A program made the translations under genes and the position numbers. Source: Acidobacteriota bacterium (lineage in GTDB: Bacteria; Acidobacteriota; Thermoanaerobaculia; Multivoradales; JAGPDF01). From it: a DNA stretch of 33,939 bases. Positions 32,769 through 33,939 of this stretch are shown in pieces. Every line of letters begins with the position of its first letter. Position 1 is the stretch's first letter. The notes beneath the pieces are model-generated. The model searched no databases. It saw nothing but the letters and a program-made list of their open reading frames with translations, and was not told the origin of the DNA. The stretch covers positions 1-33,939 of the forward strand of contig WYBK01000238.1 in the NCBI GenBank assembly GCA_011525905.1, given 5' to 3'.

Positions 32769-33665
32769 ATGAGCCGGCGCGATCTGGGTCTCGACGTCGC
32801 GGCCTTCCTGCTGCTTACCGCGATCTGGGGAACCACCTGGGCGGCGATCCGGGTGGCGCTCGTCGACATCCCGCCGCTCACCGGCGTCGCGATCCGCTTC
32901 GCGCTCGCCGGCGCCCTGCTCGTCGCGCTCGCCCGGGCTCGGCGCGTCGCTCTCGGCCGGACGGCGCGCGAACGCCGCCTTTGGCTGCTCAATGCCGGCA
33001 CCACGTTCGCGGGTTCCTACGGCCTGGTGTACTGGGCGGAGCAGTGGGTCCCCTCGGGGTTGGCGGCCGTCCTGTTCGCCACCTTCCCGCTCTGGGCGAC
33101 GCTGCTCTCGCGCTGGCTGCTGCCCGGGGAGCCGGCGCCCGGCCCGGCCCGGTTGGCGGGCCTCGTGGCGGGCTTTCTCGGGGTGGCCCTGCTCTTCTCC
33201 GAGGACCTCGAGGCGCTCGCCGGGGGCGGCGCCCGGCGCGCCGCGGCCCTGCTGCTCCTGGCGCCGCTCCTCTCCGCGCTCGGCTCGGTGGCCATCAAGA
33301 GGTGGGGGAGCGGGATCTCGGCGCTGTCGCTCTCGGCCGTGCCGATGCTGCTGACCGGCGGCGCAGTCGGATTCCTGGCCGCTCTGGTCGAACGCGGCCG
33401 GCCGATCGGCTGGGGCACCGGCCCCTGGCTGGCGACGCTCTACCTGGCGTTCGCCGGATCGGCGCTCACTTTCACCCTCTACTTCTGGCTGCTGGCGCGG
33501 CGCAGCGTCCTCGCGGTCGGACTGATCTCCTACACGGTCCCGGTCGTGGCGGTCGCCGTGGGGCACTTCGCGCTGCAGGAGCCGCTCACGCCTCGTCTGG
33601 CGGCCGGCGCGGGGCTCGTCCTGGGGGGCGTGGCGCTGTCGCTCCGGCCTCGCCGGGTCGGCTGA
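32769..33665 (+). CDS. EamA/DMT-family transporter
   Basis: A 298-residue inner-membrane protein with ten predicted helices in two five-helix repeats. Repeat 1 begins LDVAAFLLLTAIWGTTWAAIRVAL, the classical EamA start, and includes GLVYWAEQWVPSGLAAVLFATFPLWATLLS. Repeat 2 begins near LLLLAPLLSALGSVAIKRWG and includes AFAGSALTFTLYFWLL and VGLISYTVPVVAVAVGHFALQEPL. Family members export amino acids, nucleosides, sugars or drugs. The substrate cannot be told from the sequence. It is divergent from the metalloprotease, with a 156-bp spacer. Confidence 0.93.
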   Translation: MSRRDLGLDVAAFLLLTAIWGTTWAAIRVALVDIPPLTGVAIRFALAGALLVALARARRVALGRTARERRLWLLNAGTTFAGSYGLVYWAEQWVPSGLAAVLFATFPLWATLLSRWLLPGEPAPGPARLAGLVAGFLGVALLFSEDLEALAGGGARRAAALLLLAPLLSALGSVAIKRWGSGISALSLSAVPMLLTGGAVGFLAALVERGRPIGWGTGPWLATLYLAFAGSALTFTLYFWLLARRSVLAVGLISYTVPVVAVAVGHFALQEPLTPRLAAGAGLVLGGVALSLRPRRVG

Positions 33666-33688
33666 AGCCGGAGACGCGGCGCTCGTTG

Positions 33689-33720
33689 CCGCTTTGCGGT
33701 AAAATTATGCCGCAGTGCGG
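33689..33720. promoter_or_regulatory. Tandem CCGC-N3-GCGG palindromes flanking a -10-like box
   Basis: Two 11-bp palindromes, CCGCTTTGCGG (33689-33699) and CCGCAGTGCGG (33710-33720), have centres exactly 21 bp apart. The AT-rich TAAAATTATG (33700-33709) lies between them. TAAAAT is a good -10 for the gene starting at 33801. The arrangement looks like a two-site operator for a dimeric repressor on one face of the helix. Alternative: the first palindrome is a small hairpin after the EamA stop, although no T-run follows. Confidence 0.5.
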
Positions 33721-33800
33721 AAAGTTCTGCGGGAAGGTCCGACCACGGCCGACGATCTTGTACATTTCGGAGGGGCGACAGACCCCCAGGAGGAGGCCCG

Positions 33801-33939
33801 ATGAGCCACGCGTCCGGCACCCAGGTGAGCGAACAGGAGGCCCGAAAGGTCGCCGAAGCCTCCCGCGAGACCGAGTGGGCGAGCCCCAGCTTCCTCAAGG
33901 AGCTCTTCCTCGGGAATTTCCGTCTCCACCTGCTGCACC
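33801..33939 (+). CDS. Acyl-CoA dehydrogenase-like protein, 5' part
   Basis: Only 46 codons are visible before the window ends. ATG 33801 is preceded by AGGAGGAGG at about 33788-33796, a strong ribosome binding site. The translated start, with EARKVAEASRETEWASPSF and then LKELFLGNFRLHLLH, resembles the helical N-terminus of long acyl-CoA dehydrogenases, where a KELFLG-F/R-RLDLIHP segment is common. No active-site residue is in view, so the assignment rests on N-terminal similarity alone. The leader of about 90 nt carries the tandem palindromes at 33689-33720. A second possible -10, TACATT, is at 33761-33766. Confidence 0.55.
   Translation, partial: MSHASGTQVSEQEARKVAEASRETEWASPSFLKELFLGNFRLHLLH

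Follow-up and report, generated by a model that had tools for sequence, protein, structure and literature searches.

Two extended palindromes flank a -10-like element upstream of an acyl-CoA dehydrogenase gene

The window, which is the whole 33,939-nt stretch analyzed and also the whole of contig WYBK01000238.1 (C163), ends within a gene on the forward strand that begins at 33801 (33801-33939) and codes for a 636-aa acyl-CoA dehydrogenase (ACAD; Pfam PF02771/PF02770/PF00441/PF21343). The last 127 bp of the window (33813-33939) equal the end of contig C73, which is a typical assembly-graph overlap; the ACAD frame runs on into that contig, and its length is that of the reading frame joined across the C163/C73 overlap. 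Upstream of it, and on the same strand, lies a gene for an EamA-family transporter (32769-33665). Two CCGC-N3-GCGG palindromes, CCGCTTTGCGG at 33689-33699 and CCGCAGTGCGG at 33710-33720, are found between the two genes, spaced 21 bp apart (start to start) with TAAAATTATG (33700-33709) in between, so that both flank a -10-like TAAAAT just 5' of the ACAD gene. GC content falls to 50% over this operator-like segment, compared to 72.5% across the window. Judged by its named relatives, the source genome belongs to the Acidobacteriota, class Thermoanaerobaculia. The original prediction of two palindromes around an AT-rich -10 was thus reproduced in both coordinates and sequence, and its assignment of the downstream gene to the ACADs was borne out by the domain search.

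Both palindromes are the cores of longer 17-bp sites, O1 (TTGCCGCTTTGCGGTAA, 33686-33702) and O2 (ATGCCGCAGTGCGGAAA, 33707-33723), with the extended consensus TTGCCGC-RNY-GCGGCAA. When scored with a matrix built from 71 boxes in phaR promoters of our own and related genomes, with no ACAD sequence in the training set, O2 (24.1 bits, higher than the median of 22.6 in training) and O1 (16.9 bits) are the two best 17-mers of the 33.9-kb window, the next reaching 9.9 bits. The R and Y of the centre are nearly invariant in the family-wide matrix; the AGT centre of O2 fits this rule and the TTT centre of O1 falls outside it. The right end of O1 forms the first bases of TAAAAT (33700-33705, forward strand), a probable -10 element that occupies the same place beside the box as in phaR promoters, and O2 would span the expected transcription start at about 33712. 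No good -35 is found 17-18 bp from TAAAAT, where the sequence reads CGGCGC or GCGGCG, and because the -35 is weak a consensus promoter scan of the window gave no match. O1 lies 20 bp beyond the end of the transporter gene, where a possible decayed third box (GCCG-N6-CGGC, 33667-33680) is also seen; in relatives of the same family (L007, L009, L010 and L169) a third box lies about 19 bp 5' of O1. With its weak -35 and what looks like a decayed third box, the window's promoter seems somewhat altered compared with theirs. O2 ends about 80 bp before the ATG at 33801, which is preceded by a ribosome-binding site (AGGAGGAGG, 33788-33796, forward strand).

The box marks phaR promoters

The genome possesses a single PF07879 (PhaR) gene, on contig C56 from 15328, and three copies of the box lie just 5' of it (15226, 15261 and 15291). 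A PhaR gene was present in all 40 genomes searched, and a box preceded phaR in each of the 29 promoters tested, 26 of which read TTGANN-N17/18-TANNNN with the right half-site of the box adjoining the -10. O1 in the window is arranged in the same way, with TAAAAT as the -10. Scanning 31 whole genomes with TGCCGCRNYGCGGTADNNT, the box joined to the -10, gave 17 matches compared to one for the reversed control, and these were distributed between phaR (13), phasin genes (three) and an ACAD gene (one, in G002). The three phasin promoters with a box belong to relatives; the phasin genes of our genome follow phaR in one cluster. The PhaR protein scored 87.9 bits against the PF07879 DNA-binding domain (cut-off 25) and 88 bits against the equivalog TIGR01848, below the curated cut-off of 109.45. 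The C-terminal PHB_acc domain (PF05233) was not found in the six PhaR proteins scanned against Pfam, and a sequence search of solved structures returned no PhaR relative, only weak matches to designed proteins.

The sites described for PhaR in other bacteria are YTKNTGCRNYGCANMAR in R. eutropha (PMC12849132), TG[N]TGC[N]3GCAA for PhbF of Herbaspirillum (PMC3206438) and WNWD2NYGCRNYGCRNH2WNW, with the core YGCRNYGCR, for PhaR (AniA) of S. meliloti (PMC12542648). In length, symmetry and RNY centre the box of Thermoanaerobaculia, TTGCCGCRNYGCGGCAA, agrees with the known PhaR sites. The operators of Ralstonia eutropha, Herbaspirillum and Sinorhizobium meliloti also resemble those reported here in their palindromic GC-RNY-GC core, in often having several boxes per promoter, in their placement within the promoter, and in the presence of boxes both at the gene for the regulator itself and at those for phasins. 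They differ beside the core, where C/G is fixed here (CGCRNYGCG) whereas T/A predominates in the proteobacterial sites (TGCRNYGCA), although the S. meliloti consensus YGCRNYGCR admits both the CGC and the TGC forms. The proteobacterial TGC...GCA triplets were absent from the window and from most of the order, which has CGC...GCG instead, and were found in a single family (f4), with the classical TGCAGTGCA form upstream of phaR, as TTGTGCAGTGCAGCAA. The PhaR of family f4 differs at several otherwise fixed positions, and a PHA synthase is kept beside phaR. This suggests that the PhaR protein and its DNA site may have changed together, as a correlation seen in one family. In the f4 locus L189:9073-11604, PhaE-like and PhaC-like genes point away from phaR, and the boxes are of the classical TGC...GCA type. 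Among plasmid-borne phaR genes read for boxes in Azospirillum, Sinorhizobium and Chlorohelix, only that of Sinorhizobium showed one (CGCATTGCA), which adds little.

FadR, PsrA and similar fatty-acid regulators of the TetR/GntR type control ACAD genes. The original prediction named such a regulator as a candidate, and an ACAD gene is indeed a usual target for one, so that control of the downstream gene is a feature in common; both the regulator family and the DNA site are different, however. The box was present in all phaR promoters tested and marks the phaR promoter throughout the order (PF07879, a different family), it resembles the published PhaR sites, and the promoter-coupled scan gave phaR, phasin and ACAD promoters only. 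An operator for a TetR- or GntR-type regulator is consequently improbable, and, because the box marks phaR promoters and because of the promoter-coupled matches, the regulator is most likely PhaR. We therefore propose, with a probability of roughly 0.87 and from sequence comparison, that the two palindromes together serve as a double operator to which the only PhaR-family regulator of the genome would bind, repressing the ACAD gene as part of a storage, beta-oxidation and glyoxylate-shunt regulon.

Conservation upstream of ACAD orthologues and malate synthase

In the congeneric genome G003 (L010; 76% protein identity) the DNA upstream of the ACAD gene reads CCGCTTTGCGGTAAAATCATGCCGCAGTGCGGAAAG, nearly as in the window, with O2 identical and the flanks different. 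The corresponding sequence in G004 (L163), from another genus of the same family, is CCGCTTTGCGGTAAAATCTAGCCGCACTGCGG, and the CCGCTTTGCGGTAAAAT of O1 is exactly kept in both. With the phaR-trained matrix, 17 of 27 distinct loci had a box above 10 bits upstream of the ACAD gene. The p of 0.005 from shuffling at each locus is the lowest value that 200 shuffles allow, and the Fisher value is given no weight here, since orthologues are not independent of one another. Most families of the order have the box at their ACAD orthologues; with the same matrix, those of families f4 and f7 had none. The original prediction of an operator over the -10, for which a lack of conservation upstream of orthologues would have been damaging, gains from this conservation.

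Malate synthase is likewise preceded by the box in seven of the eight genomes of the window's family, the start of the gene not being located in the remaining one. At L125:2859-2873 the box, kept within this family, lies 5' of a malate synthase-like gene. Box-like palindromes 5' of an EttA-like ABC-F gene (L126:2598 and L159:2510) looked shared, but the two genomes differ in their position and sequence.

Proposed action of the double operator

O1 fills the space just 5' of the -10 (spacer and -10) and O2 lies over the expected transcription start, so that PhaR bound there should exclude RNA polymerase and thereby repress the ACAD gene; promoter occlusion is thus the likely mode of action, judging from the placement of the sites. 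In species where it has been studied, PhaR keeps its targets repressed until granules recruit it (PMC9049629), and it is also able to activate (PMC12849132). By analogy, PhaR here would be drawn onto storage inclusions, which would then free the promoters. The boxes at phaR, malate synthase and the phasin genes of relatives would join with the ACAD operator in one regulon linking the storage inclusion with beta-oxidation and the glyoxylate shunt. The sequence itself shows the boxes, their place in the promoter, their conservation, the regulator gene and its operon; we infer the binding of PhaR, the repression and the signal alike, and induction by storage inclusions is suggested by analogy only.

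The palindromes could instead work in RNA as 5'-leader hairpins, given that each can form a short hairpin and that the two could also pair with one another. This is very unlikely, as folding was no better than that of shuffled sequences (z -0.03), no Rfam match was obtained, O1 lies 5' of the expected start and would stay untranscribed, and conservation follows the position of the -35/-10.

According to the original prediction, a motif occurring at background frequency would speak against an operator. The bare CCGCN3GCGG does occur at background (14 seen in the window compared to 11.1 expected), and to that extent the objection stands, but it does not hold for the extended 17-bp site; how often the bare motif occurs is the wrong test, given that the real site extends beyond it. 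The suggested genome scan for pairs with 21-bp spacing gave two occurrences compared to one for the reversed control. A 15-mer with one mismatch allowed also occurs at background frequency in three genomes, with most sites intragenic, so isolated matches mean little and single matches were not accepted. It is the extended 17-bp site, not the bare core, that exceeds chance. Functionless chance occurrence in GC-rich DNA, the reading favoured by the bare-core count, is the least credible of all, as the extended boxes rank first and second in the window and are placed at a promoter, and boxes are kept 5' of orthologues (76-83% protein identity) where the flanking DNA has diverged.

PhaR and phasins in genomes lacking a detectable PHA synthase

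PhaR and phasins are usually counted as part of PHA granule biology. Searches with PF07167 and TIGR01836 detected no PhaC in our genome (93% complete) or in most of its relatives (34 of 40 genomes), and the PhaC-negative genomes include one estimated to be 100% complete; a PHA synthase of an unrecognised type could nevertheless be present. The phaR operon of our genome (L063:10329-14453, contig C56 of G000) consists of phaR, two phasins, a patatin-like lipase and a WS/DGAT (wax-ester/triacylglycerol synthase; TIGR02946, 360 bits), and the phaR-phasin-patatin order is kept across families. The WS/DGAT is near phaR mainly in the window's family and elsewhere mostly on other contigs. Clusters for neutral-lipid storage with a WS/DGAT share the wax-ester/triacylglycerol synthase and the patatin-like lipase with this operon and differ in that the linkage to PhaR and phasins is found here; no paper on a link of such clusters to PhaR and phasins was found in the literature library searched. 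Unlike proteobacterial PhaR systems, the targets here include ACAD and malate synthase, with no PHA synthase detected.

PhaR may therefore have been redirected to neutral-lipid storage. Somewhat short of even odds, we would tentatively extend this to most Thermoanaerobaculia, in which PhaR and phasins would operate without PHA, PhaR would sense wax-ester/triacylglycerol inclusions or another storage signal, and a rewired regulon would serve lipid storage, lipolysis, beta-oxidation and the glyoxylate shunt, with a GC-shifted site. That PhaR and phasins are conserved, along with a precise operator, in a lineage where no PHA synthase is detectable suggests that one sensor can be put to use for a different storage compound. 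This regulon also provides a testable list of targets in a poorly studied phylum, with storage tied to beta-oxidation and the glyoxylate shunt.

Two further features of these loci were observed. Phasin domains are fused to a DUF2188 domain at L200:749-1453 (reverse strand), L201:1575-2231 and L197:1725-2363. In several families the gene immediately 5' of phaR, the first gene of L185, L186, L188, L191 and L192, codes for a P-loop ATPase whose start (VVVVGSGGVGKTT) is ArsA-like.
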